This document shows positions 3,627 through 35,957 of a stretch of DNA of 41,366 nucleotides, in pieces; positions within the stretch are counted from its first letter, which is position 1, and every line of letters starts with the position of its first letter. The stretch covers positions 1-41,366 of the forward strand of contig JACQVI010000118.1 in the NCBI GenBank assembly GCA_016209795.1. Reading direction: 5' to 3'. The position numbers were made by a program, and so were the translations under genes. Below the pieces are notes generated by a model, which ran no database searches, was not told where the DNA came from, and worked only from the letters and a program-made list of their open reading frames with translations. The stretch comes from Ignavibacteriota bacterium. GTDB lineage: Bacteria > Bacteroidota > Ignavibacteria > UBA10030 > SZUA-254.

Positions 3627-3653
3627 TCCGATTTTAGTAGCTCACTTTCCACC

Positions 3654-3666: not shown

Positions 3667-3679
3667 TTGAAAGATACTT

Positions 3680-4654: not shown

Positions 4655-4679
4655 ATCGATAAACAAGCCAAAACACGTA

Positions 4680-7907: not shown

Positions 7908-7917
7908 CAAATAGGTT

Positions 7918-13011: not shown

Positions 13012-14160
13012 ATGAAAACACTTTTGATTGTAACAACAGGACTACAACGACTTGATCGAGCCGAACTTCTGCTCAAAGAAGCAGCCGACGAATTCCCTCG
13101 AGTTTCCTTGTTCGGGACAAAGCTGAACAGTGATATATTAGATGAAAGATATCTTAAGACGGTGACCTTAATCAGACGATTCCTGTATAAGCTAATCCCC
13201 ACCGCCGTTGCCCAAGTCCTTGAGGCATTTTACATCAAAAATAAATACGACGTCATCATCTCATGGTCAGAAAGGCGTGCGCTCTTATTTGCACTGCTAC
13301 TTAAACTCTCGGGTTCGAATACTAAACACGTCGCTTTGATGTACTGGATGTCAAAACCGAAGCAGTCGATACTTTTTCACTTGGTTCATAACCATTTTGA
13401 TCGGATAATTACATGGTCATCAGTTCAGCGAGATTATGCATTGAATGTGTTAGGTATTCCGGCATCGAGAATCGCTTTTGTTCGCCATCCCGTTGATCAA
13501 CAATTTTGGAGACCAATCAAACAAGAAACAGATATGATCTCTTCAGCAGGATCTGAAATGCGTGATTATGCTACATTGCTTGAGGCTATGAAAGGTCTCA
13601 ATATGAAATGTCATATTGCAACGAACGAAATTCGCATTGTGAAAAACCATACTGCCGTCAGGTTAAACAAAAACCGGCTCGGTGCACTTCCACCAAATGT
13701 GTCTATTGGATTTCTACAGTATAAAGAACTAAGAGATCTCTATGCTCGCTCACGATTTGTCGTCGTACCACTATTCCCTTCAGACACAGACAACGGTATT
13801 AATACAATCTTGGAAGCTATGGCTATGGGCAAAGCAGTAATATGCTCACGGATCAAAGGACAGGTAGATGTCATCCGGGAAGGGAAGACCGGCATCTTTG
13901 TACCTCCGGGGGATTCTAAAGCTCTTCGCAATGCAATCGAATATTTATGGAATAATCCATCAGTCGCGCAACAAATGGGAACCGAGGCGCGACTTTACAT
14001 AGAAAAATATCATAGCATCGAGCAATTTGTCGATGACGTCAAAAGCTTGGTTGAAGAGGTCATTACAAAAGACAAAACTAAAAGTAAGTGTATGACCTCC
14101 ATTCATCATGAATCAATTATTGGAAACATCCATGGAACTTCTCGACCAATATCTTCTTGA
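13012..14160 (+). CDS. GT4-like glycosyltransferase, copy A
   Basis: The 382-aa GT-B protein has a C-terminal donor domain with the GT4 pattern VVVPLFPSDTDNG..TILEAMAMGKAV and a following REGKTGIFVPPGD. The N-terminal half (TTGLQRLDRAELLLKEA, then DEFPRVSLFG) is not typical of well-known GT4 members. It is shared almost throughout with the protein at 27677, for example VQRDYALNVLGIP in both. The two are clearly paralogues within one locus. The 3' end overlaps the AMP-ligase-like gene by at least 29 bases in another frame. No good Shine-Dalgarno precedes the ATG. Confidence 0.82.
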   Translation: MKTLLIVTTGLQRLDRAELLLKEAADEFPRVSLFGTKLNSDILDERYLKTVTLIRRFLYKLIPTAVAQVLEAFYIKNKYDVIISWSERRALLFALLLKLSGSNTKHVALMYWMSKPKQSILFHLVHNHFDRIITWSSVQRDYALNVLGIPASRIAFVRHPVDQQFWRPIKQETDMISSAGSEMRDYATLLEAMKGLNMKCHIATNEIRIVKNHTAVRLNKNRLGALPPNVSIGFLQYKELRDLYARSRFVVVPLFPSDTDNGINTILEAMAMGKAVICSRIKGQVDVIREGKTGIFVPPGDSKALRNAIEYLWNNPSVAQQMGTEARLYIEKYHSIEQFVDDVKSLVEEVITKDKTKSKCMTSIHHESIIGNIHGTSRPISS

Positions 14161-15658
14161 TGCAGCTCAGAAATTTCCTGAGAAAAAGGCAATCATCTGT
14201 GATGAGCACGTTATATCATACATAGAGCTTATCAACCGAATTAGTACTTTCTCAGAGAAATTACGGGATAGTGGCTTTGACCTGGGCAAAAGAGCTGTCA
14301 TCTTGGTTCACGACAAGGTAGATTACCTCACAGCTTGCTTTGCTACGATGCAGGCAGGGGGCATTGCTGTTCCGTTGACTGAAACTACCACCACCCACTT
14401 TATCCAAAAAGTAATGAAGGATTGTGATCCCCTGCTTTTTATAACAAGCAAAAAGGAGACGTTAGAAGATTCTCTCTCAAATATCGATCATAATTGCACG
14501 ATAATGTATGTTGATGATACAACAATGCCCCTCTTTCAAAGCAAGAGATATACGGTTCCACTATTAGCAGATAATCAACGTGGGGCATTGATACTCCACA
14601 CTCATGGAACAAACGGTGAACAGAAGAGTGTCTTGATGTCACATCGAAATCTTATTCATGCTGCATTATCCGCTAATACAATCTCAGGAATTGATTCTTC
14701 AATTCGAGAGTTTGTTACACCACAACTTACACAATCGTTTGGCTTTGGAAGATGCTTATCTATACTCATCAACGGCGGTACAATTGTGGTTACGAATCAA
14801 ACGATAACTTCTCTCACGATAACAGAGACGATTTTTAAGCACCGCTGCAATGCATTATCCATTGCCCCTTCAATGTTCTCAACTATCATGAATTCCAGTA
14901 AATCACCGTTGAAGAACATTTCTTCACAATTACAAGTTATCGATTTGGGGAGTAAGGAAATTTCTGTACAAAGGAAAAGAGACTTTCTGAGAATGTTCCC
15001 AAAAGCTCGCATTTTCACGCACTATGGACTTACCGAAGCCTCGTATTGTACGTCTCTTGAATTACGATCTGAAGAGAAGAAAATTCAAACAGTTGGCAGA
15101 GCTTCTCCATCTGTTGAAATCGGAGTTATTGATGATCATGGAAATCTTCTAAGGCATAACATGACTGGCGAGATTACAGTGCGTGGAGAAAATGTCATGA
15201 GCAGGTACTGGCACGATAGCGAGCTTACTCAACAAAGCTTCACCGAAGGAAAATGGTTGAAGACAGGAGATTGTGGTTTTTTAGATGATGATGGCTATCT
15301 CCATGTTTTAGGTCGTAAGGCAGAGATGATCAACCTTGGTGATACAATGTTCTCTCCACTTGAAGTTGAGGAAAAAATACGAGAAATATTTCCAGACTAT
15401 GAATTCTGTGTTATAGGTGTTCCGGACCCGAGTGGAGTACGAAAAGAAATTCCGGTGCTCTGCTACATTCCGCATGAAGGTAAAACCATCAATGCATCCG
15501 AGCTTTCACAAGCTCTATCGAACAAAGTTGATACGAATAAGATTCCTCGGATCGTCTATCGCATTGACCATCTTTCAATATCGGACCATCAGTCATTACG
15601 ACAAGAAATCCGGAAACATCTCTTAGTAAGTTTTGCACAAACAGTTAATCTTCTTTAA
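14108..15658 (+). CDS. AMP-dependent synthetase/ligase homologue lacking the A10 lysine
   Basis: The 516-aa product has the class I adenylate-forming fold. Core A3 reads THGTNGEQK where TSGTTGxPK is usual. A5 is HYGLTEAS, A7 is WLKTGDCGFLDDDGYLHVLGR, and A8 is KAEMINLGDTMFSPLEVEE. The A10 region is altered: where a catalytic Lys normally sits in GKxxR, the sequence is DHQSLR (Gln about residue 495). A10 Lys is needed for adenylation, so this enzyme may be impaired in acid activation or may perform only the thioester-like half-reaction or binding. An alternative ATG at 14132 would shorten it by 8 residues and reduce the overlap with the preceding gene. It probably handles a small carboxylic acid for glycan tailoring; substrate unknown. 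Confidence 0.85.
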   Translation: MNQLLETSMELLDQYLLDAAQKFPEKKAIICDEHVISYIELINRISTFSEKLRDSGFDLGKRAVILVHDKVDYLTACFATMQAGGIAVPLTETTTTHFIQKVMKDCDPLLFITSKKETLEDSLSNIDHNCTIMYVDDTTMPLFQSKRYTVPLLADNQRGALILHTHGTNGEQKSVLMSHRNLIHAALSANTISGIDSSIREFVTPQLTQSFGFGRCLSILINGGTIVVTNQTITSLTITETIFKHRCNALSIAPSMFSTIMNSSKSPLKNISSQLQVIDLGSKEISVQRKRDFLRMFPKARIFTHYGLTEASYCTSLELRSEEKKIQTVGRASPSVEIGVIDDHGNLLRHNMTGEITVRGENVMSRYWHDSELTQQSFTEGKWLKTGDCGFLDDDGYLHVLGRKAEMINLGDTMFSPLEVEEKIREIFPDYEFCVIGVPDPSGVRKEIPVLCYIPHEGKTINASELSQALSNKVDTNKIPRIVYRIDHLSISDHQSLRQEIRKHLLVSFAQTVNLL

Positions 15659-15668
15659 GGAAAAAGCC

Positions 15669-16412
15669 ATGGTAAAGAAACCAAAAACCGCAGAAATCAA
15701 TCCGGGTCCCGGTTTTAGGATTCGGACAAACATCAAACGCCCTGACCCCGCGATTATAGCTGGACTGGGTGAATTCGAGACACCTGTCATCTCCGATCTT
15801 ATGAATCGGTTATACACGATGACGCCGGCAATACATAACCTTACAGCACCTGAGCTAAACATTCTTGGATCAGCCTGTACAGTCAAAGTTTTCCCGGGCG
15901 ATAATCTCATGGTCCACAAATCACTCGATCTCGCTGCACCAAATGACATTATCGTCGTCGATGCGGGTGGATCATCCATGAATGCAGTGATGGGCGATCT
16001 TGTCTGTACGAAGGCTCGGCATCGTCAAATCGGAGGTTTTGTTGTGGATGGATACGTCCGAGATATTCCAGGCATCCTTGAGCTCCATTTCCCGGTGTAT
16101 GCACGCGGTATAACTCCGATTGGACCTCTGCATCGAGGACCTGGTGAAGTCAATTTTCCAATACAGTGCGGGGGAATTGTCGTTCATCCAGGCGATATCA
16201 TTGTTGGCGATATGAATGGTGTCGTTGTTGTCCCACAGGAAATAGCCAGCGCTCTGTTACAACGATTGCGAGACCGAAGAGGAGCCGAAGCAGAATATCT
16301 CGCTGCAGTGAAACGTGGAGAATTTTCAAACGAATGGGTTGATACGATTCTTACTGAAGGTCAATGTGAAATCATCCAAGACCACGAATTCATCTACACT
16401 ACTCAACTATGA
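15669..16412 (+). CDS. RraA-like class II aldolase (HMG/CHA aldolase family)
   Basis: The 247-aa protein of the RraA/HMG-aldolase family has NDIIVVDAGG, a metal-site GDL in MNAVMGDL (104-111), GGFVVDGYVRD with the catalytic Arg131 and metal Asp132, and the C-terminal VHPGDIIVGDMNGVVVVP. Aldolases of this group cleave 4-hydroxy-2-oxo acids to pyruvate or related 2-oxo acids, or decarboxylate oxaloacetate. Arg and Asp are present, which favours an enzyme over the catalytically inert RraA ribonuclease regulator. The start ATG 15669 has AAGGA at 15657-15661; an upstream TTG would overlap the previous gene and is rejected. It is coupled to the next gene by ATGA (16409-16412). Confidence 0.88.
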   Translation: MVKKPKTAEINPGPGFRIRTNIKRPDPAIIAGLGEFETPVISDLMNRLYTMTPAIHNLTAPELNILGSACTVKVFPGDNLMVHKSLDLAAPNDIIVVDAGGSSMNAVMGDLVCTKARHRQIGGFVVDGYVRDIPGILELHFPVYARGITPIGPLHRGPGEVNFPIQCGGIVVHPGDIIVGDMNGVVVVPQEIASALLQRLRDRRGAEAEYLAAVKRGEFSNEWVDTILTEGQCEIIQDHEFIYTTQL

Positions 16413-17560
16413 AGATCACACATAACATACGCTGGAAAAGACTCCAGATAGATGTGTTACGAATGCCGATGTATTTAAAGAACGTCTGGAAGAGATTACT
16501 CAATCCAGCATATCTCGATGACAAGGCATTTGAAAAATGCTACGACTCCATCTGGCGCTATGCTGCTGAGGAATTATCGGCTGAACTTATCAAGCTACCA
16601 GATGGGTTCTGTGATATCAAGCTCAATTCTCGCATGACTCGCATGAAGCATCACCTTGTCATGATCGATCATCCTGTAACTGTCGAACTTACAAGAAACA
16701 AACCACTAGTGCATACATTATTGCGTGACGCTGGTCTGCCTGTTCCTGATTTTGCTGTATTCCTCTATGACGACATTAATTCAGCAAAATCGTTTCTTGA
16801 TAAAGCCAAGAGACCGTGTGTCATAAAGCCCGCAGAAGGATCTGCAGGAGGATTTGGTGTGACTACGAATATTAGAACGGGGCGAGATCTCAGACAAGCT
16901 GTTATATATGCATCACTCTTCAGTAAAAACTTACTCATCGAAGAGCATATTCCGGGAGAATCATATCGCCTTTTATATCTTAATGGAGAATTCATTGATG
17001 CAGTTCGTCGACGAGCACCTCGTGTTGTTGGCGACGGGAAATCAACGATTGCACAGTTGATTGAAGCGGAGAATACACGGCGCGCAACGATGATGGGTAT
17101 TGATACCCTCACACGGCTCACTATCGATCAAGACTGCATCCTTACGCTGCGTAACAACGGAACATCATTGAACGATGTACCCGAAGCTGGAGTTGAAGTT
17201 CAAATAAAAACGGCAACAAATCAAAACTCTTCAAAAGAGAACGAATCCGTACGGAATCTCCTTGTCGATGCTCTCATTCAAGAAGGTCAACGTGCTGCAT
17301 CGGTTTTGGGGGTCCAACTCGCAGGTATTGATATCATCACAAAAGATCCGACTGTCTCATTAGCACAAAGCGGCGGTGTCATTAATGAAGTGAATTCAGT
17401 GCCTGGGTTGCATTTCCATTATCAAACCTGTAATCCAGAACATCGTGTTCCTGTTGCAGTGCCTATTTTACGTCACCTTTTAGGTGTCAATAATACGTCA
17501 GCGCATTTACTGAATGAAGATCTTGAACATTATCATCATGAAACCTCACACAAATACTGA
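16409..17560 (+). CDS. ATP-grasp ligase, cyanophycin-synthetase/GshF-like
   Basis: The 383-aa protein has an ATP-grasp core. KPLVHTLLRDAGLPVPDF leads into the nucleotide-binding lysine strand CVIKPAEGSAGGFGV. LLIEEHIPGESYRLLYLNG follows, then VVGDGKSTI, and the Mg-binding end VINEVNSVPGL. This arrangement matches the amino-acid-ligating ATP-grasp domain of cyanophycin synthetase and GshF-like enzymes, which form amide bonds via acyl phosphates. The acidic Mg ligands (Glu, Asn) are retained, so it should be active. It probably condenses an amino group with a carboxylate in the proposed tailoring pathway. The 3' end overlaps the next ATP-grasp gene. Confidence 0.88.
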   Translation: MKITHNIRWKRLQIDVLRMPMYLKNVWKRLLNPAYLDDKAFEKCYDSIWRYAAEELSAELIKLPDGFCDIKLNSRMTRMKHHLVMIDHPVTVELTRNKPLVHTLLRDAGLPVPDFAVFLYDDINSAKSFLDKAKRPCVIKPAEGSAGGFGVTTNIRTGRDLRQAVIYASLFSKNLLIEEHIPGESYRLLYLNGEFIDAVRRRAPRVVGDGKSTIAQLIEAENTRRATMMGIDTLTRLTIDQDCILTLRNNGTSLNDVPEAGVEVQIKTATNQNSSKENESVRNLLVDALIQEGQRAASVLGVQLAGIDIITKDPTVSLAQSGGVINEVNSVPGLHFHYQTCNPEHRVPVAVPILRHLLGVNNTSAHLLNEDLEHYHHETSHKY

Positions 17561-18794
17561 TCGAGCACCTGCCATTATCCTTGGCGGAGATACGATTGCA
17601 TTAGCTGCAGCGCGCAGCCTTGGTCGGCGTGGCATAGAGGTCTATGCACTCGACGAGCCTGCAAGCTATGCTCGTCATTCACGGTATTGTAAATGGATTC
17701 CGTTGAAAGATCGTGACGGGTCAGGCATAAGCCGCCCAACAGTGTGGTACCGATGGCTGATGGAAGAAGGAGTAAAAACACTTCAAGGTGCTGTGCTCAT
17801 ACCGGGTTCAGATCATGGACTTGAAATAATCGGTAGACACTATGAAGAACTTAAGAAGAACTACATAGTAACAGAAACTGACCCGAATGTTCTGAGCTCA
17901 ATGTTGGATAAAGCGAAAACGTATGAATTAGCAGGCAAGATCGGAATTCTTACACCGAAAATGTGGAGTGCTCATTCCGCAGACGATATTACCCGTATCA
18001 TGGATGAGATCCCATATCCATGTGCAGTCAAGCCACGACACTCATACAAGTTTATGGAACACTTCCCTGGGAAGAAATTATTCGTCGCTCATAACCATAC
18101 TGAAATGCTAGAGATTATTAACAATGTCAAACGATACAATCTCGAGGTCATCATTAATGAGATTATCCCTGGAAAAGAAGATGCCTATTGCAGCTATTAT
18201 ACATACCTCGACGAAGATGGCAAGCCATTATTCCACTTCACAAAGCGGAAGCTTCGGCAATATCCTGTGGGATTTGGCAATGGGACATACCATTGCACTG
18301 ATTGGAATCCGGAAGTCGCTAAACTTGGATTAGAATTCTTTCAAAAGATCGGCTACCGCGGACTCGGTAATGTTGAATTTAAGCTCGATGCACGAGATGC
18401 CAAACTGAAGCTCATCGAATGCAATTCTCGATTGACGTTAGTGACTGAATTAATCAGACAATCAGGACTTGATTTACCATTGCTACTTTATCAACGAGCA
18501 ACGAAGCAACCACCGCCGCCTTTGAATGGCTATCGCAAAGAGTTATATACAGTTCTGCCAGTTGTTGATTTCCTCGCATTTCGGGAATTGCATCGTCGAG
18601 GAGAACTTTCGTGGTTTCAATGGCTGCGGAGTCTCAGGCACAAGTTTTGTTTCTTACACTTTGCATGGCATGATCCTTTGCCAACCTTAGTTCGTTTCTA
18701 TCCTTTCGTCAAAAAGCAGTTTAGAAAGTTAGGCGTGAACTTGTTTCGCAGAGGACATACCCGTCATGACTTAAAACCAATTTTGAGTAAGTGA
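17538..18794 (+). CDS. ATP-grasp carboxylate-amine ligase-like protein, copy A
   Basis: This ATP-grasp protein is of the short CarB/D-aspartate-ligase-like type. The N-terminal pre-ATP-grasp Rossmann segment is IILGGDTIALAAARSLGRRGI. KAKTYELAGKIGILTPKMW and the ATP-binding Lys strand YPCAVKPRHSYKF follow, then VIINEIIPGKEDAYCSYYTY and the Mg site GNVEFKLD..LKLIECNSR. An in-frame ATG at 17514 would add MKILNIII and overlap the preceding gene by 47 bases; ATG 17538 gives a better N-terminus before the Rossmann strand. The C-terminal 100 residues are basic and aromatic, possibly membrane-associated. It is related to the protein at 26278 but divergent. Confidence 0.86.
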   Translation: MKPHTNTDRAPAIILGGDTIALAAARSLGRRGIEVYALDEPASYARHSRYCKWIPLKDRDGSGISRPTVWYRWLMEEGVKTLQGAVLIPGSDHGLEIIGRHYEELKKNYIVTETDPNVLSSMLDKAKTYELAGKIGILTPKMWSAHSADDITRIMDEIPYPCAVKPRHSYKFMEHFPGKKLFVAHNHTEMLEIINNVKRYNLEVIINEIIPGKEDAYCSYYTYLDEDGKPLFHFTKRKLRQYPVGFGNGTYHCTDWNPEVAKLGLEFFQKIGYRGLGNVEFKLDARDAKLKLIECNSRLTLVTELIRQSGLDLPLLLYQRATKQPPPPLNGYRKELYTVLPVVDFLAFRELHRRGELSWFQWLRSLRHKFCFLHFAWHDPLPTLVRFYPFVKKQFRKLGVNLFRRGHTRHDLKPILSK

Positions 18795-18798
18795 GTGA

Positions 18799-19890
18799 AT
18801 GTTGATTGAAAATTCCATAGTAAACACCGTCTCAGTTTCAAAACAAGGTTTACAAAAATTTGTCTTTGATATCCTTATGGCAAGCGCTGCTGCGACAGCC
18901 GATGCTCAGATTGTGGCTGAAGCACTTGTCTGGTCTGACTTAAGAGGTCGACACGCACAAGGTGTCGCCCGTTTGCCAATTTTCATTAAACGATTGCAAC
19001 GCGGTTTGATTTTTTCACCTGCAGCAATGAACTGGAAAGCACTAGCACCTGCTATCTATCTCTTAGATGCAGGTCACGGATTTGGTCATGTTGCAGGTCG
19101 GATTGCAATGACAAAGGCAGTTGAATTAGCAAAAGGAAATGGAATTGGTCTTGTCACAGTGAAACACAGCAATCTCTATGGTTCAGCGAGCTACTATTGC
19201 GCATTAGCCTCTGCTGCTGATTGCATCGGGTTTACGTGTACAAATGCTGTCGCCAAAGTTGCGCCGTACGGGGGAACACGACCAGTACTGGGAACTAATC
19301 CCCTTGCATTTGGCAGTCCGACATCGTCCGGTGTACCAATACTCATTGATCTCTCAACGAGTGCGATAGCAGGTTCTTCTGCGCGCGACGCTGGAAACAA
19401 TGGCAACCTCTTACCTGAAGGTGTAGCACTGGATGCAAACGGTAATCCGACGAGAGACCCAATTGCCGCTGGGAATGGATGTTTGCTCCCGGGTGGATCG
19501 AAGGGTTTCGCATTAGGACTGATGGTAGAAATATTGTCTGGAGTCTTAACCGGTGCTGCGTTAGGGCGCGAGGTCGGCTCGATTTATAATACGTGGGATA
19601 AGCCGGTGAACACAGGACATGTCTTCATAGCAATACATATTGAAAGACTACTTCCTCTCAACGTGTTTCTTTCTCGAGTGGATCAATTGTTAGATTGGAT
19701 CTCATCAACGCCGAAACAGGAGAATGTTGACGAAATACGATTCCCTGGACAGATACGAGCCCGTTATGCCGAAGAATATTCACGGAGCGGAATCCCTTTA
19801 CCACAACAGACAGCGCTTGATTTAGAAAACCTTGCGCAACGTCTCGGTCTCGAAACACCATGGAAAGCTCAATCCAATAATCATTGCTAA
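18799..19890 (+). CDS. Ldh2-type (malate/lactate/ureidoglycolate) dehydrogenase homologue with altered active site
   Basis: The 363-aa protein of the Ldh2/AllD family has SDLRG, GIGLVTVKHSN, APYGGTRPVLGTNPLAFGSP, ILIDLSTS and the dinucleotide segment PGGSKGFALGLMVEILSGVLTG. Two family signatures are changed. The usual rGv-x-SHG is RGRHAQGV, so the motif His is Gln at about residue 54. The usual SNHFG is SNLYG, placing Leu126 where the His should be. A His lies two residues upstream in the first and three upstream in the second, so a rearranged active site is possible. Canonical members reduce 2-oxo acids with NAD(P)H; whether this one does is uncertain. It follows ATP-grasp copy A by 4 bases. 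Confidence 0.84.
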   Translation: MLIENSIVNTVSVSKQGLQKFVFDILMASAAATADAQIVAEALVWSDLRGRHAQGVARLPIFIKRLQRGLIFSPAAMNWKALAPAIYLLDAGHGFGHVAGRIAMTKAVELAKGNGIGLVTVKHSNLYGSASYYCALASAADCIGFTCTNAVAKVAPYGGTRPVLGTNPLAFGSPTSSGVPILIDLSTSAIAGSSARDAGNNGNLLPEGVALDANGNPTRDPIAAGNGCLLPGGSKGFALGLMVEILSGVLTGAALGREVGSIYNTWDKPVNTGHVFIAIHIERLLPLNVFLSRVDQLLDWISSTPKQENVDEIRFPGQIRARYAEEYSRSGIPLPQQTALDLENLAQRLGLETPWKAQSNNHC

Positions 19891-19984
19891 GCTATGCATG
19901 AGAGACGGTTGTTAGGCACAACAAGAATACAAGTTTTTTGAAAAAATCATGTAATCATCACAAATGACTGAAAAGGAGAGTACG

Positions 19985-20971
19985 ATGAAAAAAATATTCA
20001 CCTTTAATCCAGCAAGTTACGCTAAAGAGTTTGCGGAGAAAGGATTTGTTTTCATTCCGAAAGGCGTGACAGAAGAATTTCATCAATACATGGTCAAGCA
20101 AGCAGAAAATTACCAACAATCAAAGGTTCTCAAAGATTTCGCCCTTGGGAACAAACAACAATCCCTGTTTGAATTTCCAGAAAATAACAATGCGCTGAAT
20201 CAGCTTTTTGAAATGGTTAGTGGTGTCACAGGCATTGATTCGAAGCGACTCGTTCTTTCTGAGCGCCATATCAAATCGTACGAGCCAGACGCAAACCCGA
20301 ATCCACTTGCCCATAAAGATCGGTATGCTTCCGAGATCTCAGTTGGTCTTTCTATTCATGTCCCAAAAGGCTCTAAACTGATTTTGTATCCTTATGACCA
20401 CATCGAGGTCAATCCGTTCAACTCTGCAGCCGGTTTGCGAGCGAGTTTCTCACCGGATCAGCTTCCTGAAGAGTATCTTACAACAGCGCGTAAAGTAGAG
20501 TACACCGATTCTCCTCGCGATGTTCTTGTGTTTCGAGGCAGCGCTGTTTGGCATCTCCGATCCAATCCGGCAAACACAATGAATCTTTATCTCAAATTCA
20601 ATTCATTTAACTGTGATCCAATCGGAGAAGATCCAACGACAGCGGTGACTCGCAAACGAACTCTTGAAGCACTAACCATGAGCGACGACGTTCTCTTGAA
20701 TCTTACTCCCATGGTAGGCAGGCGGGTCGATTATGTTCACCGTCAGTACACACGTCAATGGGATGAAGTCCTCGGTGTAGTTCTATGGGGTGAAAGTCAC
20801 TTTACTATCGACATGCAAGAATTTGCAGCGTTGAAAGCAATGGATGGAAAGCGAAATGTCCGTGCGGTTATTTCCCAGATGAACGGATCATTGAATCAAA
20901 CAGAATGTTTGAACAAAATACGTCGCCTTGCCGCTCGTGGCGTAGTCGATTTGATACCAGCATTAGATTAA
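19985..20971 (+). CDS. Fe(II)/2-oxoglutarate dioxygenase-like protein with PqqD-like C-terminal domain
   Basis: The 328-aa product has a cupin-type core like phytanoyl-CoA dioxygenases. A candidate metal facial triad is visible: His110 and Asp112 in LAHKDRY, and His190 in VFRGSAVWHLRSN. After about residue 265 there is a small winged-helix-like tail (FAALKAMDGKRNVRAVISQM then CLNKIRRLAARGVVDL) that resembles PqqD or precursor-recognition domains. That would suggest recognition of a peptide or carrier-bound substrate for hydroxylation. ATG 19985 is chosen because AAGGAG lies 8 bases upstream; an in-frame ATG at 19964 overlaps that element. Family assignment is by motif only. Confidence 0.68.
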   Translation: MKKIFTFNPASYAKEFAEKGFVFIPKGVTEEFHQYMVKQAENYQQSKVLKDFALGNKQQSLFEFPENNNALNQLFEMVSGVTGIDSKRLVLSERHIKSYEPDANPNPLAHKDRYASEISVGLSIHVPKGSKLILYPYDHIEVNPFNSAAGLRASFSPDQLPEEYLTTARKVEYTDSPRDVLVFRGSAVWHLRSNPANTMNLYLKFNSFNCDPIGEDPTTAVTRKRTLEALTMSDDVLLNLTPMVGRRVDYVHRQYTRQWDEVLGVVLWGESHFTIDMQEFAALKAMDGKRNVRAVISQMNGSLNQTECLNKIRRLAARGVVDLIPALD

Positions 20972-21042
20972 CTGTCTATGGTGTATTGATGAGTTACAAT
21001 GTAAATAAACGTTTGGAGAACTTTTACTAAGAAGGACGAGTT

Positions 21043-21786: not shown

Positions 21787-21809
21787 GCGCTGCAAACGAT
21801 ATGTAGAAA

Positions 21810-25392: not shown

Positions 25393-25396
25393 TTTT

Positions 25397-26233: not shown

Positions 26234-26277
26234 TAAGCTGAATATTTCGAACACTGTGAAAACTCGTGATATAATTT

Positions 26278-27669
26278 ATGAAACCATTGAATAACATAAA
26301 AACCAGAAGTGTCGTTATAGGAACAGGTTGGAGCCCCAGCGTCTACGATATTGTGCGGTGCCTTGGCATGAAAGGGATATATTCTACCGTTGCATCTATT
26401 AATACAAAACATGAGATGGCGTATTATTCACGCTACTGTTCTGAGAAACTAATTATACCTGTACTACAACCTGAAAATGAAGAAGAGATTCTGTCAAAAC
26501 TGTTAGAATACGCTTTACAACAAGAAGAAAAACCTATTCTGTTCTATACCGATGATGCTGAGCTTCGATTTGTCTGGCAATATCACAGTCGACTCTTGCA
26601 GTTTTATCGTTTTCTCTTACCACCGGACGAGATTATGGAGCCTATCTTTAACAAAGTATTATTCAGTGGTTTTGCGGAAAAATATCATCTCCCTATTCCT
26701 GTATCAAAAGCATTCCGCACGACTGAACAGCTGCGTTCTGAGATAGATACTGTGGTTTTCCCTTGTATTGTGAAGCCGGCATATCATCAGGATTGGAACT
26801 GGAAAAGCAGGAATCAACGTGAATATTTTGGTGGTTACAAAGAGTCTCTTCGCCGTTTTGATTCAAAGAATAAGCTATTGGAATTCTGTGAAAAACTTCC
26901 TCATTCACCTTCCGGCTTCGTTGTACAGGAACACATTGATGGACGGGATGAATGTATTTTTAGCTTTCATGGATATTTCAATGATCGATCACATTGCTTA
27001 GGTTATTTCCTCGGTCATAAGATCAGAACATATCCGATTCATACAGGACGAAGTGCATATATTGAAACTGTAGACAATCCTTCACTTGCAAAATCAAGTA
27101 TTGAGTATTTACAACGAGTGGGATTCCGTGGTATTGTAAAAATCGACTATAAATGGAATAAACGATCTCAGGTATTTAACATACTTGAAATTAACCCACG
27201 GTATAACATGTGGGAGGTATTGGGCGCTTATGCCGGGATAAATTTACCAGTCATAGCTTTTCACTCTCAGCGCGGGGAAAATGTAACGGAACAGTACTCA
27301 TATAATGTGAACTCTTCGTTGATTTACTGTAAAGAAGATCTTCGTTCCTTTTTGAATGGATATCGGCAAACAGGTGAGTGGACAGTAAGAACGTATCTGA
27401 AGTCAATCTTAAGGAAAAAACAGTACCGTGTTTTTGATCGCTATGATAAAATGCCATTTTGTTTCTCTACGATATCGTTCATCGTACGAAATTTCCTCCG
27501 CATGTTTGGAGTCAAACCAGAATACGAGCGGACAGTAGATGGAGAACTGCTCAAGCGAAAAGATGGCAGGGCAAAAAAATACCACGAGACGCTGGCGGAC
27601 TCTGATAAGAATTCAAACCTCGTCTCGTCAAATTCAGAAATAGATACACCGGTATTAATAAAAAATTAG
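26278..27669 (+). CDS. ATP-grasp carboxylate-amine ligase-like protein, copy B
   Basis: This 463-aa ATP-grasp protein has an N-terminal Rossmann-like segment (VVIGTGWSPSVYDIVRCLGMKG) and LFYTDDAEL. The ATP-binding Lys strand is FPCIVKPAYHQDW, followed by FVVQEHIDGRDECIFSFHGY. The Mg site is VKIDYKW..FNILEINPRYNMWE, with catalytic Glu and Asn retained. It belongs to the same broad group as 17538, resembling short CarB or D-aspartate-ligase-type enzymes that form an amide via acyl phosphate. The C-terminal 130 residues continue past the core, basic and then polar. It is followed 7 bases later by the second GT4 copy. Confidence 0.86.
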   Translation: MKPLNNIKTRSVVIGTGWSPSVYDIVRCLGMKGIYSTVASINTKHEMAYYSRYCSEKLIIPVLQPENEEEILSKLLEYALQQEEKPILFYTDDAELRFVWQYHSRLLQFYRFLLPPDEIMEPIFNKVLFSGFAEKYHLPIPVSKAFRTTEQLRSEIDTVVFPCIVKPAYHQDWNWKSRNQREYFGGYKESLRRFDSKNKLLEFCEKLPHSPSGFVVQEHIDGRDECIFSFHGYFNDRSHCLGYFLGHKIRTYPIHTGRSAYIETVDNPSLAKSSIEYLQRVGFRGIVKIDYKWNKRSQVFNILEINPRYNMWEVLGAYAGINLPVIAFHSQRGENVTEQYSYNVNSSLIYCKEDLRSFLNGYRQTGEWTVRTYLKSILRKKQYRVFDRYDKMPFCFSTISFIVRNFLRMFGVKPEYERTVDGELLKRKDGRAKKYHETLADSDKNSNLVSSNSEIDTPVLIKN

Positions 27670-27676
27670 AAAACGC

Positions 27677-28783
27677 ATGAAAATCTTAACCATAGTTTCA
27701 GCAGGATTGGGACGACCGGATCGGGCTGAATTAACACTGATGGAACGCTCAGACGAATATCCACGTGTTTCACTCTATGAAAGAATTTTAGAATCCGATA
27801 TGCTGGACGAAAAATTTATGCAGAACGTGCCGAGAGTACGGCGCGCGCTGTACAGATTTCTTCCGATGGTTCTCGCACAAGTAATCGAAGCGTATCTGAT
27901 CCGCAAACGCTACGATGCAGTGATTACATGGGCAGAACGATTAGGGCTGCCATTTGCGCTGATCCTTAAAATCACTGGCTCCAAGACTCCTCATCTCATG
28001 TTGAGTAGCTGGATATCGAAACGAAAAAAAGCAATGATGGTGAAGTTTGTTCAATCTCATATCACTAAGATCTTCATGTGGTCAACAGTACAGCGAGATT
28101 ACGCGATCAACGTGTTAGGCATACCGTCATCGAAGATTGCTTTCGTCCGTAAGTTCGCCGATCAACAATTCTGGAGACCGATGCAACGTGAAACCGATAT
28201 AATCTGCTCAGTCGGAGCTGAAATGCGGGATTATCCAACATTAATCGAAGCAATGCGTGGACTTGACATCAGATGCCACATCGCAGCGGCAAAACCACGA
28301 GGGAAAACATACTCTACAATAACGGCAATTGAAAAGATTGGACAACTACCGCCCAATGTTACAGCAGAACCAAAAAGTTATAAGGATCTGCGTGAACTTT
28401 ATGCTCGTTCCCGCTTTGTTGTCGTGCCGTTACTTCAGTCAGAAACAGATAACGGGTTAACGTGTATCCTCGAAGCGATGGCTATGGGAAAAGCGGTGAT
28501 TTGTTCAAAAACAAAGGGACAGATTGACGTCATCAAAGAAGGTGAAACCGGAATCTATGTCCCTCAAGGTGACCATTTTGCTCTACGGGAAGTCATCCAG
28601 AGACTTTGGAATAACCCAGAAGAAGCAGAACGGATGGGAAAACAGGCACGGAAAGTGCTTGAGGAACGCCATACATTTGAACAATTTGTGTATAGTGTCC
28701 GAGCGATTGTCGAAGAAGTGATTCGAAAGAAAACCCCATCAAGGGCATTCAACGTAACGGAAGTTTATGAGAAAGTAACTTGA
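27677..28783 (+). CDS. GT4-like glycosyltransferase, copy B
   Basis: The 368-aa paralogue of the protein at 13012 is collinear over the whole length. N-terminal VSAGLGRPDRAEL corresponds to VTTGLQRLDRAEL, VQRDYAINVLGIP is nearly identical, and DQQFWRPMQRETD matches DQQFWRPIKQETD. The donor-site region is LQSETDNGLTCILEAMAMGKAV with REL/KDL-type neighbours. GT4 fold and donor-binding loop are intact. Two related enzymes probably add similar sugars or act on two acceptors. It sits between ATP-grasp copy B and the second spermidine-synthase-fold gene, so the duplication included only parts of the cassette. Confidence 0.83.
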   Translation: MKILTIVSAGLGRPDRAELTLMERSDEYPRVSLYERILESDMLDEKFMQNVPRVRRALYRFLPMVLAQVIEAYLIRKRYDAVITWAERLGLPFALILKITGSKTPHLMLSSWISKRKKAMMVKFVQSHITKIFMWSTVQRDYAINVLGIPSSKIAFVRKFADQQFWRPMQRETDIICSVGAEMRDYPTLIEAMRGLDIRCHIAAAKPRGKTYSTITAIEKIGQLPPNVTAEPKSYKDLRELYARSRFVVVPLLQSETDNGLTCILEAMAMGKAVICSKTKGQIDVIKEGETGIYVPQGDHFALREVIQRLWNNPEEAERMGKQARKVLEERHTFEQFVYSVRAIVEEVIRKKTPSRAFNVTEVYEKVT

Positions 28784-28838
28784 CAACATTCAGATGATTA
28801 ATAGGTCATTCAATCTGAAATCTTGTTCGTAAAAAAAC

Positions 28839-29591
28839 ATGAAATATTATTCAGAAAAAATACTACCGGTGATTCGCTCGTATAAACCCAATAATGTGAT
28901 CTCGAGATGGAGACGAAGGAAATATTCTTCAACAATTATTTTCCAATCACACACTCCGATATCGGGCGATGTGAAAGTGATAGATTATGGAAGTGAGCGT
29001 CAACTTGTGATCAACGGAGACACGCATTCACTCAGTTTTACAAACGGAAAATGGAATGAAGTGCGACGCGAATGCTGGGGTCAATTTTATCGTACACCGT
29101 TTGCTCTTGTTCGACATCCAAAAGTTCTCCTCTTAGGCTTGGGCGGTGGAACAGTGCTTCACTTATTGCATCAAGACCTTCACCCATCATCTATGGTTGC
29201 TCTGGAGAGAGATCCTGAAATACTTGAGATCGCAAAGAGCTTTTTTTCACTCGCTAATGTACCGGGATTAGAAATAATACTTGGTGATGCGTCGGTAACA
29301 TTGAAACAGCTTCAAACCAATAATAATAAATTCGATCTGATTATTGATGATATCTTCTATCAAATGGCATCGGACACGATCAATAGAATACGTGAGCACG
29401 TAGAGATACTGTTCTCACTCCTTCACACCGGTGGTTCCGTTGTCTTCAATCATCCTATTGATAAACCGACGGAAATCAACCACACCAGACACTTCGTTCA
29501 CACGTTAGAAGATATGGATTGCGTTGTTTCGGTCAAATCCATTCGACAGCGCTGGTGGAACGATATTATTTTTTGTCGACGAAAGAATTAA
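28839..29591 (+). CDS. Spermidine-synthase-fold SAM-binding protein (copy B)
   Basis: The 250-aa product has an intact nucleotide-binding motif VLLLGLGGGTVLHLL (96-110), an acidic ligand strand ALERDPEI (121-128), LGDA (148-151) and FDLIIDDIFY (165-174). The layout equals the polyamine-synthase/methyltransferase superfamily, but the usual polyamine-site tail is not recognised, so a methyltransferase or other SAM-dependent role is equally likely. It is the sister of the degenerate protein at 25397. The pair may act as a heteromer in which only this subunit binds SAM, which is inference. It ends 8 bases before the next FemAB-like gene. Confidence 0.78.
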   Translation: MKYYSEKILPVIRSYKPNNVISRWRRRKYSSTIIFQSHTPISGDVKVIDYGSERQLVINGDTHSLSFTNGKWNEVRRECWGQFYRTPFALVRHPKVLLLGLGGGTVLHLLHQDLHPSSMVALERDPEILEIAKSFFSLANVPGLEIILGDASVTLKQLQTNNNKFDLIIDDIFYQMASDTINRIREHVEILFSLLHTGGSVVFNHPIDKPTEINHTRHFVHTLEDMDCVVSVKSIRQRWWNDIIFCRRKN

Positions 29592-29599
29592 AGACAGTA

Positions 29600-30793
29600 A
29601 TGGTCATGGAAATTCGCATCATAAATACAATAGAAGAGCTTTATTCTCTTGAACTGTCGTGGGACATGTTACATAGACAGGCTGCGGGTTCTATTTTTCT
29701 AACATTTCAATGGATAGTTGTTTGGTGGAATATCTATAGTCTGCCATCGTATCAACTCCGCGTAGTAACACTTAGGCATGAAAACATTCTCATAGGCATC
29801 CTTCCGATGTTTCTGGAAACTATTAACCTTGGAATGGTAAAGATTAAACGACTTCGTTTTCTTGGAGTTTATGAAACTTACGGTGAGTATTGTCCCCTCA
29901 TACATCCAGACTTCAAGAAGGAAGCACTACAAGCATCGGTTGCATTCTTTCGTGACGAAATTGATAAGAAACACTGTGATCTCATATCCTTCTTCCGATT
30001 TCCTCAAAATTCAGACTTCATGCAACGGGTAATTCAAGAATTACAATCGGATGATTTGTACGTCAGCTATACACCGCACTGCATCGATCGAGTGATGATG
30101 GAATTACCTCACTCATGGGAAGAATATATTAATTCACTTTCACCAAACGAGCAAAAAATGCTCGCTCGACGATCACGATCACTCTTCAAGAACAGCGTTG
30201 AACTTGAAACTCTTCAGAACTCAGAATACACTGAAGGGGATTTTGATGACTTCGTACGGCTTCATACCGCAAGCTGGACACAACGCGGTATGAGGGGATA
30301 TTTCGGTTCGTCAAGCCGTTTTGAAAAATTTCAACGAAACATTATCTCGTTGATGATCGAAAAAAATATGGCACGATTGTATTTCCTCAAGAAAGACAAC
30401 GTCCGTTTCGCTGGAGTGAGCATGTTCTATTCAAATGGTCAATGTCACTTTTACCTCAGTGGTCTAGATCGCAAACATCCGTTGGTTAATCAAAGTCCGG
30501 GCAAGGTATTGTTGAGCCTGGTTATTAAAAAGGCAATCGAAGAGAACTATATGATCTTTGACTTCCAGGGTGGAAGCGAGCAGTACAAATTTCAGCTTGG
30601 CGGTAAGCAGACAGCATTTTCTAAAGCAATTATCGCGAAGAAGGGATTACCACTAACTAAAGTATATCTCTTGCTTTGCATGCAGTCCTTGTATCGTTTT
30701 GTGTTCGAGACACTCTGGGAAAATACCATACTCAGAAGCAGCAGAATGTTGTCGAAAGCTGTCAAAAACCGTTCCAATCATCATGAGCAGTAA
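29600..30793 (+). CDS. FemAB/CelD-like GNAT acyltransferase, copy 4
   Basis: The 397-aa Acetyltransf_6-family protein begins MVMEIRIINTIEELYSLE. Motifs are FLTFQWIVVWWNIYS, ENILIGILPMFLE, LSPNEQKMLARRSRSL, HTASWTQRGMRGYFGS and the end block FDFQGGSEQYKFQLGG. An upstream in-frame ATG at 29519 would overlap the preceding gene by 73 bases and is not favoured. It is the most divergent of the five copies in the N-terminal half but keeps the catalytic-lobe signature (GSEQYK for GDEQYK). It would add an acyl or aminoacyl group to a glycan amine; donor unknown. The next gene starts inside its final codons. Confidence 0.83.
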   Translation: MVMEIRIINTIEELYSLELSWDMLHRQAAGSIFLTFQWIVVWWNIYSLPSYQLRVVTLRHENILIGILPMFLETINLGMVKIKRLRFLGVYETYGEYCPLIHPDFKKEALQASVAFFRDEIDKKHCDLISFFRFPQNSDFMQRVIQELQSDDLYVSYTPHCIDRVMMELPHSWEEYINSLSPNEQKMLARRSRSLFKNSVELETLQNSEYTEGDFDDFVRLHTASWTQRGMRGYFGSSSRFEKFQRNIISLMIEKNMARLYFLKKDNVRFAGVSMFYSNGQCHFYLSGLDRKHPLVNQSPGKVLLSLVIKKAIEENYMIFDFQGGSEQYKFQLGGKQTAFSKAIIAKKGLPLTKVYLLLCMQSLYRFVFETLWENTILRSSRMLSKAVKNRSNHHEQ

Positions 30794-32072
30794 GGTCATG
30801 GAAGTTATACAGAAGACGGCTACACCAGAACCTTTGGGGCACTTGGCTGACACGAATAACACTAAGTCTCCGATGGGAACACGCATTCTCGAGGTTCAGG
30901 AAATAACCGATATGTCGGCTCTCAAGAAACTCGAACCACACTGGAACCGCTTGCTTGAAGAGTGCGAGCGACCAGTGGTATACTTAACGTATGAATGGTT
31001 GACCACATGGTGGAATTGCCATCAAAATCCAAACAAGAAACTCATGGTGCTGGTTGTTACTGATGGCTCTGACGTCATTGGTATTGCTCCATTTATGCAA
31101 ATCGAGAAATACTATCTTGGTATGCACATGCGGAAAATTGAATTTTTATCAATGATGAGGTATGCGTACTCCCCGGTGAATTGCTCTGGCACCTTGGATG
31201 TTATTATTCCTAATCGACACATCGAAGTACTCAGTGCCATCGTAACACATCTGAAATCTATCAATCACCGATGGGATTATCTTCGACTGCATCCTATTCC
31301 CGAGAATGCACCCTCTCTTGAGGCTTTGCGAAAGGAGTCTTTACGGCATGGCTTTCTATTTTCTCAAAGGAAAGTGTTCTCCAATGCATGCATTCATGCA
31401 ACACTATCATGGGAAGAATATTATCGGAGCCGATCTCACAGCTTCCGAAAAAATCTCCGTTACCAGGCTAACAAGCTTGAACATCATGGAACGAGGACAG
31501 TCAACAATGTTAATGCACAAGTAGACATTAAGACAATCATTCAGCATATAATAGACATTGAACAACGTAGCTGGAAAGCTACTCATGGAACAAGCATCGA
31601 CAACGAACGATACCGTCGATTCTACTTTCGTTTCCTAGAAGAGGCGCACAAACGGGGATGGTTACAACTGTGGATGCTTGCCATGAATGGAAAAAATGTA
31701 GCATACGACCTTGGTATTGAATATTGTGGAAACGTCGATATACTCAAAGGGAGCTACGATAGAAGCTATCAACGGTTCTCTGTCGGCAATCTTTTGATGC
31801 TGAGAGAAATCGAATACTTTTTCCAAAGCGGCATCAGGAAAATTAACTTACTATGGGGCGATCTTCCCTACAAGCTGAAATGGGCAACGCATCTGGAGCC
31901 TCACTGTGAAGTATATCTCTTTAATAACACACTGTATGCAAAACTGTTGTACACTATTTATATCCGCTCATCGTTGTATCGAATCATTCGATTCCTATCG
32001 AATATGATCGATAAAACATTATGGAAGATTGGCGTTAAGGAAATGAAGGAAGTCGAACGATGTACGACATGA
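30783..32072 (+). CDS. FemAB/CelD-like GNAT acyltransferase, copy 5
   Basis: The 429-aa Acetyltransf_6-family protein is closely paralogous to copy 2. It shows YLTYEWLTTWWNC, DVIGIAPFMQIE, KIEFLSMMRYAYSP, SHSFRKNLRYQANKL, RSWKATHG and the final NLLWGDLPYKLKW. ATG 30783 overlaps the preceding stop (30791-30793); another in-frame ATG at 30798 is possible. An upstream start at 30699 exists but is embedded in the previous gene. N-terminal residues 1-35 are polar and poorly conserved, the fold starting near MGTRILEVQEI. It forms with copies 1-4 an unusually large acyltransferase set for one glycan locus. Confidence 0.84.
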   Translation: MSSKVMEVIQKTATPEPLGHLADTNNTKSPMGTRILEVQEITDMSALKKLEPHWNRLLEECERPVVYLTYEWLTTWWNCHQNPNKKLMVLVVTDGSDVIGIAPFMQIEKYYLGMHMRKIEFLSMMRYAYSPVNCSGTLDVIIPNRHIEVLSAIVTHLKSINHRWDYLRLHPIPENAPSLEALRKESLRHGFLFSQRKVFSNACIHATLSWEEYYRSRSHSFRKNLRYQANKLEHHGTRTVNNVNAQVDIKTIIQHIIDIEQRSWKATHGTSIDNERYRRFYFRFLEEAHKRGWLQLWMLAMNGKNVAYDLGIEYCGNVDILKGSYDRSYQRFSVGNLLMLREIEYFFQSGIRKINLLWGDLPYKLKWATHLEPHCEVYLFNNTLYAKLLYTIYIRSSLYRIIRFLSNMIDKTLWKIGVKEMKEVERCTT

Positions 32073-32920
32073 AACGAAGATTGCGAGCAGAAGTGTGGGG
32101 CACAGACATGGATCGATATGTACTTCGTCATCCTATGGTAGAAATAGATGGCGTTCTTATTGACGTTGAAGCTTTTTTCAAGACACGAAGTGGATGCGAC
32201 AAATGTGGCAAATGCTGCACGTTCGGTACAAGTATGCCAAAAGAAACAGCAGAAAAACTGCAGCAACATTTACCGGAGATTGCTGAGAGATACATTCCTC
32301 CAGAACGGCGTCCTCAGGTCGGATGGCACTTTTCGAATACATGGAATATCAACTACACAAACATTGTAAAAATTGATAGCCGCAGAAAAGGATGTTGTTT
32401 TCTGTACAAAAGTGGGGATCAGTATCTCTGTTCGATCTATTCCTGGGCACTGGAAACACAGCGCGATCCATTTGAGTATTGGCCCTTCGAATGCATTATG
32501 TATCCGATAGCAATTATACCATATAAAGGAATCTTGCACGATGGCAAAACACTTCTCACGTTACGGATGCCTCAAACGTGGCACATCGTCGATATCTATG
32601 GTCCAACGAGATCATTACAACGCTCCGTCGTGCGAAGACTCGCTTATGAATTAAAGAATGGACTTTTACGAAGACTGCATCGACTTGGACTTTTTTCAAA
32701 ATCGAACCGATTTGCAAGCGATTGTTATTTCCAGAATTCCGGATATACAAAGCCTCTTTCGTATGTCTACTTTAGCAAGCATATACGTTGGTATTTTGGT
32801 GATGAATTCTATGAAAAGATGTGTGAAGTTGCTCAACATTACCTTGATCAGGAATCGAAAGAATCCGTTTCGGTATATACGAATCCAAAGAAGTATCAAA
32901 TAGAAAGGTGCTCATCTTGA
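32060..32920 (+). CDS. YkgJ-like eight-cysteine metal-binding protein
   Basis: This 286-aa cytoplasmic protein has a CDKCGKCC motif (46-53), CC at 112-113, C124 (LCSIYSWALE) and C145 (FECIMYP). This eight-Cys pattern resembles the YkgJ/DUF3109-type zinc/iron-chelating family, in which Cys clusters bind a metal or Fe-S centre. The role is uncertain; in other loci such proteins accompany oxidative or radical chemistry. GGAAG sits 7 bases before ATG 32060, supporting this start although it overlaps the preceding gene; ATG 32069 is an alternative. The C-terminal half is basic and Tyr-rich (YVYFSKHIRWYFGDEFY). It may supply iron to the 2OG dioxygenase-like protein at 19985, which is speculation. 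Confidence 0.75.
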   Translation: MYDMKRRLRAEVWGTDMDRYVLRHPMVEIDGVLIDVEAFFKTRSGCDKCGKCCTFGTSMPKETAEKLQQHLPEIAERYIPPERRPQVGWHFSNTWNINYTNIVKIDSRRKGCCFLYKSGDQYLCSIYSWALETQRDPFEYWPFECIMYPIAIIPYKGILHDGKTLLTLRMPQTWHIVDIYGPTRSLQRSVVRRLAYELKNGLLRRLHRLGLFSKSNRFASDCYFQNSGYTKPLSYVYFSKHIRWYFGDEFYEKMCEVAQHYLDQESKESVSVYTNPKKYQIERCSS

Positions 32921-34182
32921 TTATTGTTGCAATTGAAATTCTTCTTCTTGGAATAGTTGGATTGTTCTTCCTCTATCTTGCTCTGCTGAGTATCCTTGCA
33001 TTCTTCAGACACAACAGGAAAGAATTGAGTGCTTCGAGGCTACATCGCTTTGCGATAGTTGTACCTGCACACAATGAAGAACTCACGATCGAGAAGACAC
33101 TCAAGAATCTTATTGCGGTCAATTATCCACGAAAACACTTTGATGTTGTCGTCATCGCTGATAATTGTACTGATAGAACTGCCGAAGTAGCCAGGGAACA
33201 CGGTGCAATCGTGTATGAACGAACAAACAGCAACTTGCGCGGTAAAGGACATGCACTCCGCTGGTGCTTTGATATTCTTATGTCACACCAGCCAAGTTAC
33301 GATGCATTTGTCGTCATCGATGCCGATAGTGTGGCAGCGGCAAATTTCTTGTTGGTCATGAATTGGTATCTTGAAAACGGATCAACAGTGATTCAAGCAA
33401 GCGATCTAGTAGAACCACGACCAGGTGTGTGGAGTTCAGAAGTCATACGACTTGGATTCACTTTGTATAATTACGTTCGACCATTGGGGCGTTCAGCCCT
33501 GAGATGTTCAACCGGTTTACGCGGTAACGGTATGTGTTTTGCAAGAGAGATATTTGAAAAATTCCCTTGGAACACATATTCCCTTAATGAGGATCTCGAA
33601 TACAGTCTTCAGCTTCTACTCAACGGATTTACAGTAGATTTCGCTCCTGAAGCACAGGTTCTTGCCACGATGCCAAGCAGTGCCCGACACGCTCAAAGTC
33701 AACGGATGCGTTGGGAGAAAGGAAGATTTCCCATTATTCAAAAATACTCGTTGCCACTGCTTCGAAACGCAATAACAAATCTATCACTGAAGTCCTTTGA
33801 TGCATTCTTAGATTTAGTTACTCCCCCATTGGTAAATTTGTTTTCGTTTGTCAGTCTGATGTTTACAGTGACTCTCTTCTTGTGGCTTTTTGGTATTGCG
33901 GGAATGGGTTCTTTTACAATTCTATGGGCATTGATAATCTTTCTTGGTTTGATTCATGTGTTTGTTGGGCTGCGTGCGGCAAAAGCAGATCGCTCGTTAT
34001 ACAGGTCTTTCCTGTACATACCACGCTATGCTGTCTGGAAGCTTGGAGTGTACATGAACATTGTTCGGGATGTTCGATCACAGGAATGGATTCGGACTAC
34101 CCGTGAATCATCAACTGACATTGAAAATGTTATCGCTACCAACAAGTCAATCAATCTTCATACACCAATAAAAGAAGGGTGA
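32908..34182 (+). CDS. Membrane GT2-family glycosyltransferase
   Basis: The 424-aa processive-type GT2 has an N-terminal helix (about 1-32), FAIVVPAHNEELTIEKTL (48-65), a donor Asp in VIADNCTDRT (82-91), DAD (138-140), the catalytic-base region NEDLEYSL (about 226) and QRMRWEKGR (about 264). These resemble the D,D,D,QxxRW set of cellulose-synthase-like enzymes. Two to three helices follow. It uses nucleotide sugar at the membrane to extend or transfer a sugar. The start is ambiguous: GTG 32908 was used, but TTG 32917 has a better-placed AAAGG (32904-32908) 8 bases upstream and overlaps the preceding TGA. It closes the main glycan operon. Confidence 0.86.
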   Translation: MLILIIVAIEILLLGIVGLFFLYLALLSILAFFRHNRKELSASRLHRFAIVVPAHNEELTIEKTLKNLIAVNYPRKHFDVVVIADNCTDRTAEVAREHGAIVYERTNSNLRGKGHALRWCFDILMSHQPSYDAFVVIDADSVAAANFLLVMNWYLENGSTVIQASDLVEPRPGVWSSEVIRLGFTLYNYVRPLGRSALRCSTGLRGNGMCFAREIFEKFPWNTYSLNEDLEYSLQLLLNGFTVDFAPEAQVLATMPSSARHAQSQRMRWEKGRFPIIQKYSLPLLRNAITNLSLKSFDAFLDLVTPPLVNLFSFVSLMFTVTLFLWLFGIAGMGSFTILWALIIFLGLIHVFVGLRAAKADRSLYRSFLYIPRYAVWKLGVYMNIVRDVRSQEWIRTTRESSTDIENVIATNKSINLHTPIKEG

Positions 34183-34563: not shown

Positions 34564-34584
34564 TGAATATACAATTTGTGGAGT

Positions 34585-35871: not shown

Positions 35872-35957
35872 TATAGGATTCGATGCAACAAAAAATTACT
35901 TTCAGTAAATTCACAAATTTTTACCTATATGAGACTTTTTGAGATATGGAGTTAACT

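Follow-up and report, generated by a model that had tools for sequence, protein, structure and literature searches.

A conserved five-gene module in an Ignavibacteria exopolysaccharide locus and its possible role in polymer decoration

Introduction

Non-sugar groups set the charge and adhesion of bacterial polysaccharides and their recognition by immune systems and enzymes, and few pathways for such groups are known. Here, we analyzed contig JACQVI010000118.1 (41,366 nucleotides, referred to as the window) of a metagenome genome of an Ignavibacteriota bacterium (3.39 Mb, 96% complete). The window carries an exopolysaccharide (EPS) locus, in which a compact module of five genes is embedded: an RraA-like aldolase (RraA), two ATP-grasp enzymes (ATPG1 and ATPG2), an Ldh2-like dehydrogenase (Ldh2), and a 2-oxoglutarate (2OG) oxygenase. 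The conserved order of these genes, from Ignavibacteria to Planctomycetota and Proteobacteria, makes them a testable pathway for non-sugar groups of polysaccharides.

The closest described systems are Wzx/Wzy EPS loci, such as those for Myxococcus EPS and the Caulobacter holdfast. The window shares with them Wza, Wzz, Wzy, Wzx, a WecG-type glycosyltransferase (GT), GT4 enzymes, an EpsU-like GT2, and a deacetylase adjoining a FemAB-like GNAT. It differs from them in having five FemAB-like genes, three ATP-grasps, and the RraA-ATPG1-ATPG2-Ldh2-2OG module. The polysaccharide pathway of the Caulobacter holdfast uses the FemX-like HfsK and the deacetylase HfsH (PMC5362036).

EPS loci of the XrtA/PEP-CTERM type likewise hold deacetylase, FemAB-like, AMP-ligase, and GT4 families. 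Membership of the window in this type was rejected because no exosortase (PF09721) was matched in its genome. In addition, its deacetylase, AMP-ligase, and GT4 fall far under the curated cut-offs, with XrtA equivalog scores of 23.5 vs 276 bits (TIGR03006) and 172.9 vs 592 bits (TIGR03098), and the XrtA FemAB models matched none of the window FemAB genes tested. Predicted amidoligase systems with ATP-grasp and GNAT genes were reportedly described by Iyer et al. in 2009 (cited in PMC12419801); the likeness, in general idea only, lies in the use of ATP-grasp and acetyltransferase-fold enzymes for peptide or amide modification.

In the part of the literature that was covered, no paper linked RraA to ATP-grasp enzymes, connected FemAB to both EPS and ATP-grasp, or placed sulfolactate in an EPS pathway, and no described locus had this combination of genes, as the original prediction for this DNA had also stated. 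Because the coverage was partial, this absence is a weak sign of novelty.

The five-gene module and its enzymes

The module spans 15633-20971 (~5.3 kb) and is a real, conserved unit. Genes were called against Pfam and NCBIfam, and curated NCBIfam cut-offs were used for family identity. G008 below is a relative of the same family.

15633-16412 (likely start near 15669, from homologues), plus strand: RraA-like aldolase (5.9e-46; 76% identity in G008)
16409-17560, plus strand: ATPG1, stand-alone ATP-grasp like the ligase domain of cyanophycin synthetase (TIGR02068, 170 bits, below cut-off; PDB 7lgn, 1.9e-31)
17514-18794, plus strand: ATPG2, ATP-grasp of the carbamoyl-phosphate synthetase/PurK/biotin-carboxylase type (weak in Pfam; AlphaFold2 (AF2) model and Foldseek)
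18799-19890, plus strand: Ldh2-like dehydrogenase (Ldh_2, 9e-99)
19964-20971 (likely start 19985, from homologues), plus strand: 2OG-Fe(II) oxygenase with a C-terminal winged helix (HxD...H motif; AF2 and Foldseek)

The Arg-Asp (RD) active-site motif of RraA was conserved in 23/23 aligned module copies, and the closest solved relative of the enzyme is an aldolase/oxaloacetate decarboxylase (PDB 3noj). The three ATP-grasps named in the original prediction score weakly in Pfam, but ATPG1 is clear in NCBIfam and ATPG2 gave a confident model (predicted local distance difference test, pLDDT, 89). The nearest solved relatives of ATPG1 are the amide-forming cyanophycin and glutathione synthetases. 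ATPG1 was rejected as a full cyanophycin synthetase, as it is a stand-alone protein of 383 aa, vs ~870 aa for the ATP-grasp fused to a Mur-ligase domain. More distant ATPG1 matches in the phylum, with frames of 645-933 aa, were taken as cyanophycin synthetases. ATPG2 was confidently modeled as an ATP-grasp of the carboxylase/PurK/L-amino-acid-ligase type; its reaction is therefore not fixed by the fold.

The genome has no Ldh_2 gene other than Ldh2. Among NCBIfam models, Ldh2 scores best against L-sulfolactate dehydrogenase (232.9 bits vs a cut-off of 500), and its nearest relative of known structure is a malate/lactate dehydrogenase. AllD His44 and His116 are described as invariant in the Ldh2 family (PMC3527362). 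In the window, these two catalytic histidines are replaced by Gln and Leu, respectively, and other module copies of Ldh2 also vary; the L076 type has His at both columns. The identity of Ldh2 as ComC (L-sulfolactate dehydrogenase) was rejected on the score below the curated cut-off and the missing active-site histidines.

The fifth protein had no Pfam match. It was assigned to the 2OG oxygenases by an HxD...H triad on a double-stranded beta-helix. This triad was invariant in 10 homologues (H110, D112, and H190 of the first sequence in the alignment), and the model (pLDDT 88) matched MINA53, SnoK, and ColD in Foldseek. The fold resembles JmjC ribosomal oxygenases and tailoring 2OG enzymes. The oxygenase part of the originally proposed 2OG/PqqD-like fusion thus stands, whereas the PqqD likeness of the C-terminal part is weak, and this region was modeled as a winged helix.

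Occurrence of the module across phyla

An ATPG1 alignment was scanned against 84,980 species genomes and yielded 40 loci; genes in GC-rich loci were picked with weighting by GC content at third codon positions (GC3) and with tblastn. RraA, ATPG1, ATPG2, and Ldh2 recur in a fixed order and with near-constant spacing: relative to the start of the ATPG1 match, RraA lies ~0.8-0.9 kb before, ATPG2 ~1.0-1.1 kb after, and Ldh2 ~2.2-2.4 kb after, with 2OG close by in many loci. Among the 22 loci with at least 3.5 kb of sequence on both sides, ATPG2 was found within 5 kb in 19, RraA in 15, 2OG in 9, and Ldh2 in 7. Loci without Ldh2 can hold a DUF1932-type enzyme (five loci) or an isopropylmalate-dehydrogenase-type (Iso_dh) enzyme (three loci) in the redox slot.

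In Proteobacteria, Planctomycetota, Actinomycetes, and other phyla, the module is again found next to polysaccharide genes. Its cultured carriers include Pseudonocardia asaccharolytica DSM 44247, Methylocystis sp. Sn-Cys, and Croceibacterium soli. The tally of its neighbors, given as raw counts with no background set, comprised GT4 enzymes (10/122), flippases (5), sugar epimerases (4), FemAB proteins (3), and deacetylases (3). Further neighbors included UDP-sugar dehydrogenases and MBOAT proteins.

Stand-alone ATPG1 at >35% identity was confined to the window and G192 among 395 genomes of the phylum; because of this sporadic occurrence, the module appears to have spread by horizontal transfer. 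A search with the 2OG protein across the phylum returned the window and one spurious match only, and a plasmid tblastn with the same protein gave no match. The G192 cluster (L033 and L034) contains two ATPG1, two RraA, and copies of Ldh2 (one broken) amid transposase genes; it also encodes an HpcH/HpaI aldolase and further sugar-acid enzymes.

The exopolysaccharide locus in Ignavibacteria relatives

Positions 1063-34563 of the window form one Wzx/Wzy-type EPS locus, in which Wza/OPX, Wzz, Wzy, and Wzx occur together with glycosyltransferases (Pfam, synteny). The order is Wza, Wzz, kinase-like ATPase, Wzy, FkbM methyltransferase, WecG-type GT, Wzx, GT4, deacetylase, tailoring genes, GT2, and response regulator (RR).

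The locus was taken from related genomes with ATPG2 and GT4a as handles, and gene orders were then compared. The order was conserved in six same-family or same-order Ignavibacteria (G007, G008, G013, G015, G025, and G030) at 33-76% identity, which makes it more than chance. The homologues are thus not scattered, and the assignment to an EPS locus with a tailoring set, made in the original prediction, agrees with Pfam and synteny. In G007 (same family), the order is FemA1, GT4, AMP-ligase, ATPG2, FemA2, FemA3, a spermidine-synthase-like protein (SpdS), FemA4, FemA5, GT2, and RR; G013, G015, G025, and G030 are similar, each without one or more of these genes. FemA1, FemA3, and FemA4 clustered with their positional counterparts in a FemAB tree. 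Because of this shared order and the tree grouping, GT4, AMP-ligase, ATPG2, FemA2-5, SpdS, GT2, and RR are integral to the EPS locus. The original prediction had described a cassette of ~21 kb fused to the EPS locus; the distinct part shrinks to the ~5.3 kb of the five genes.

In G008, FemA1, GT4, AMP-ligase, a methyltransferase, ComA, and ComB are followed by the module (RraA 76%, ATPG1 56%, ATPG2 49%, Ldh2 55%, and 2OG 58%) and then by FemA2, FemA3, GT2, and RR. In both the window and G008, the module lies within the EPS transcription unit, between AMP-ligase and FemA2. Judged by gene order, the window resembles one block of the G008 type and, after it, one of the G007 type, with GT4 and SpdS duplicated.

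ComA in the same locus

ComA is the phosphosulfolactate synthase that joins sulfite to phosphoenolpyruvate. It was found in 9 of 100 Ignavibacteria relatives, and all nine copies lie inside this EPS locus, often with a divergent ComB (L047:8013-9587; G012:C176; G040:C27; G027:C154; G467:C224; and others). In G008, ComA and ComB are directly upstream of the module. A Desulfobacteraceae locus from the ATPG1 scan (L090:4-8 kb) also contains ComA (66% identical), ComB, ATP-grasps, a radical-SAM-like protein, and a GT. With ComA and ComB beside the module, the relatives resemble the ComA-ComB-ComC pathway to coenzyme M and sulfolactate, and the window's Ldh2 belongs to the ComC superfamily. The window differs from this pathway in the lost histidines of Ldh2. 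Its 96%-complete genome also has no ComA, so the sulfolactate link applies to the relatives and not to the window as it stands. No report of ComA as an EPS gene was found in the literature covered, which was partial; within that search, its confinement to a single EPS locus gives a first indication that a polysaccharide may carry sulfolactate.

Proposed function and alternatives

The module probably acts on or for the polymer. We lean toward the explanation that the window is an Ignavibacteria EPS locus with an embedded, horizontally mobile decoration module, in which an acid or pseudo-peptide would be made and put on amino groups of the polymer by ATP-grasps and FemAB-like transferases. The Caulobacter holdfast proteins HfsH and HfsK serve as the model here: the ATP-grasps would join the product through an amide bond, and the FemAB-like GNATs would transfer it to amines that the deacetylase has exposed. 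Starting from pyruvate or a similar enolate, the RraA-like aldolase may form a 2-oxo (hydroxy) acid, which the dehydrogenase-family protein and the 2OG oxygenase could adjust or hydroxylate. ATPG1 and ATPG2 would convert carboxylates to acyl phosphates and form two amide bonds in succession, which would yield a short pseudo-peptide or N-acyl group. The deacetylase would act on lipid-linked sugars and leave them with free amino groups, onto which the FemAB-like GNATs would move acyl or aminoacyl groups before Wzx flipping and Wzy polymerization. More tentatively, the five genes may constitute an undescribed, mobile, multi-phylum module for a new hydroxylated acid or pseudo-peptide EPS group, with the Ignavibacteria slot also hosting a ComA route to sulfolactate-bearing polymers.

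Several observations weigh against this proposal. The AMP-ligase looks decayed: in contrast to the intact copies in G040 and G439, it lacks the A10 lysine of AMP-forming acyl ligases and has an altered P-loop. The folds nearest to ATPG2 include carboxylases and PurK no less than ligases, and Ldh2 has lost both family catalytic histidines. In some module loci, polysaccharide genes are few within the sequence examined, and the neighbor tally consists of raw counts. Because of the missing lysine and histidines, the acid activation by AMP-ligase and the Ldh2 redox step of the original prediction are doubtful. The group, originally proposed as an amino acid or peptide, may instead be another acid; relatives use an enzyme that forms sulfolactate at this position. 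The earlier interpretation is thus partly supported.

An unlikely alternative is that the product of the module is a free small molecule (a short peptide, an osmolyte, or an antibiotic-like compound) and that the module is found in EPS loci only because it travels with mobile DNA. Its sporadic distribution, the G192 cluster with transposase genes and no obvious Wzx/Wzy set, and the related ATP-grasps that make free N-acetylglutaminylglutamine (NCBIfam) are consistent with such a product, whereas the repeated EPS context in different phyla, the position inside the EPS transcription unit of G008 and the window, and the lack of any module-specific exporter among the genes seen argue for a role in the polymer. 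Sulfolactate, or a sulfopyruvate or cysteate derivative, made by ComA and ComB with Ldh2 as a ComC-like enzyme and attached by the ATP-grasps, is less probable still. The placement of ComA in relatives and the best NCBIfam model of Ldh2 point to it, but most module loci of other phyla are without ComA, as is the window's genome, and Ldh2 departs from ComC in score, histidines, and closest solved relative. We give an equally small chance to the extra genes being a partly decayed patchwork of two merged EPS locus types with several inactive enzymes: GT4, SpdS, and FemA2/FemA5 are duplicated, the order resembles the two blocks, and AMP-ligase and Ldh2 have active-site losses, but the active-site motifs of RraA, ATPG1, ATPG2, and 2OG are intact, no frame is broken, and identity is retained at 44-76%.

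Remaining genes of the locus

The EPS framework and the tailoring genes outside the module are as follows.

1063-1770, minus strand: Wza/OPX export protein (Poly_export and SLBB), divergent from the operon (Pfam 1.8e-16; same position in G007 and G015)
2280-4471, plus strand: Wzz-like chain-length protein and partner tyrosine-kinase-like ATPase (Pfam; syntenic)
4611-6212, plus strand: Wzy/O-antigen ligase-like polymerase (PF04932, 5.7e-13; 63% in G007)
7125-10643, plus strand: WecG-type GT26, Wzx flippase, and GT4a (Pfam; syntenic)
10681-11571, plus strand: polysaccharide deacetylase (PF01522, 2.1e-27)
11577-12959, plus strand: FemA1, FemAB/CelD-like (PF13480, 6.2e-27; orthologous clade in five relatives)
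13012-14160, plus strand: GT4b glycosyltransferase (Pfam; 56% identical to GT4c)
14108-15658, plus strand: AMP-ligase relative (PF00501, 1.7e-55; motif check)
21043-21786, plus strand: membrane protein with DDxxxxLHD motif (32% homologue in the G040 locus)
21810-24424, plus strand: FemA2 and FemA3 (PF13480; Pfam, synteny, FemAB tree)
24421-25392, plus strand: two-half Cys/Trp protein (homologues in other phyla)
25397-26233, plus strand: SpdS1, S-adenosylmethionine/spermidine-synthase-like Rossmann protein (weak hidden Markov model (HMM) match; 37% to SpdS2)
26278-27669, plus strand: ATPG3 ATP-grasp (homologues of 49-52% in EPS loci with ComA)
27677-29591, plus strand: GT4c (start 27677) and SpdS2 (Pfam; synteny)
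29519-32072, plus strand: FemA4 and FemA5 (PF13480; Pfam, FemAB tree)
32060-32920, plus strand: DUF3109/CxxCxxCC Cys-rich protein (HMM; 11 Cys in total)
32908-34182, plus strand: GT2, EpsU-like processive-type glycosyltransferase (NF041865, 259.8 bits, below cut-off)
34189-34563, plus strand: RR receiver, syntenic end of the locus (synteny)

All 20 frames in 13012-34182 are on the plus strand, and their families are essentially as first named: Pfam and NCBIfam agree on the two GT4s, the AMP-ligase relative, RraA, Ldh2, and the four FemAB/CelD-like genes with a fifth at 11577. The GT2 had been missing from that list. The protein described as having eight Cys is indeed Cys-rich, with the total of 11, and the two spermidine-synthase-fold proteins have weak HMM matches only. 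The many frame overlaps are genuine, but several (15633, 22988, 29519, and 30699) are probably over-long starts. Scans for promoters and terminators gave chance level only.

PF13480 scored above cut-off in all five FemAB/CelD-like genes, indicating a FemAB-type GNAT domain, and the whole 3.4 Mb genome has no further PF13480 genes. The bipartite Cys/Trp protein, recognized in the original prediction, represents a genuine two-half family with no Pfam model and with homologues of ~40% identity. These adjoin Wzx-like flippases in EPS loci of Nonomuraea and Mesorhizobium, and one lies next to such a flippase in Bosea. Among 60 relatives, only the window copy itself was matched, so this protein is not part of the conserved module.

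The AMP-ligase of G007, G013, G015, G025, and G030 shows graded loss of the P-loop and A10 motifs, down to remnants of 250 aa. The small DDxxxxLHD membrane protein has no Pfam model and recurs in a second EPS locus beside ComB (L061:11711-12496). In related EPS loci of the phylum (L043, L044, L052, and L061), the variable region includes a GH9 cellulase-like gene. Downstream of the locus, at 34576-41366, the window encodes a dockerin-like protein and a very long repeat protein (>1800 aa), which are likewise found downstream in relatives.

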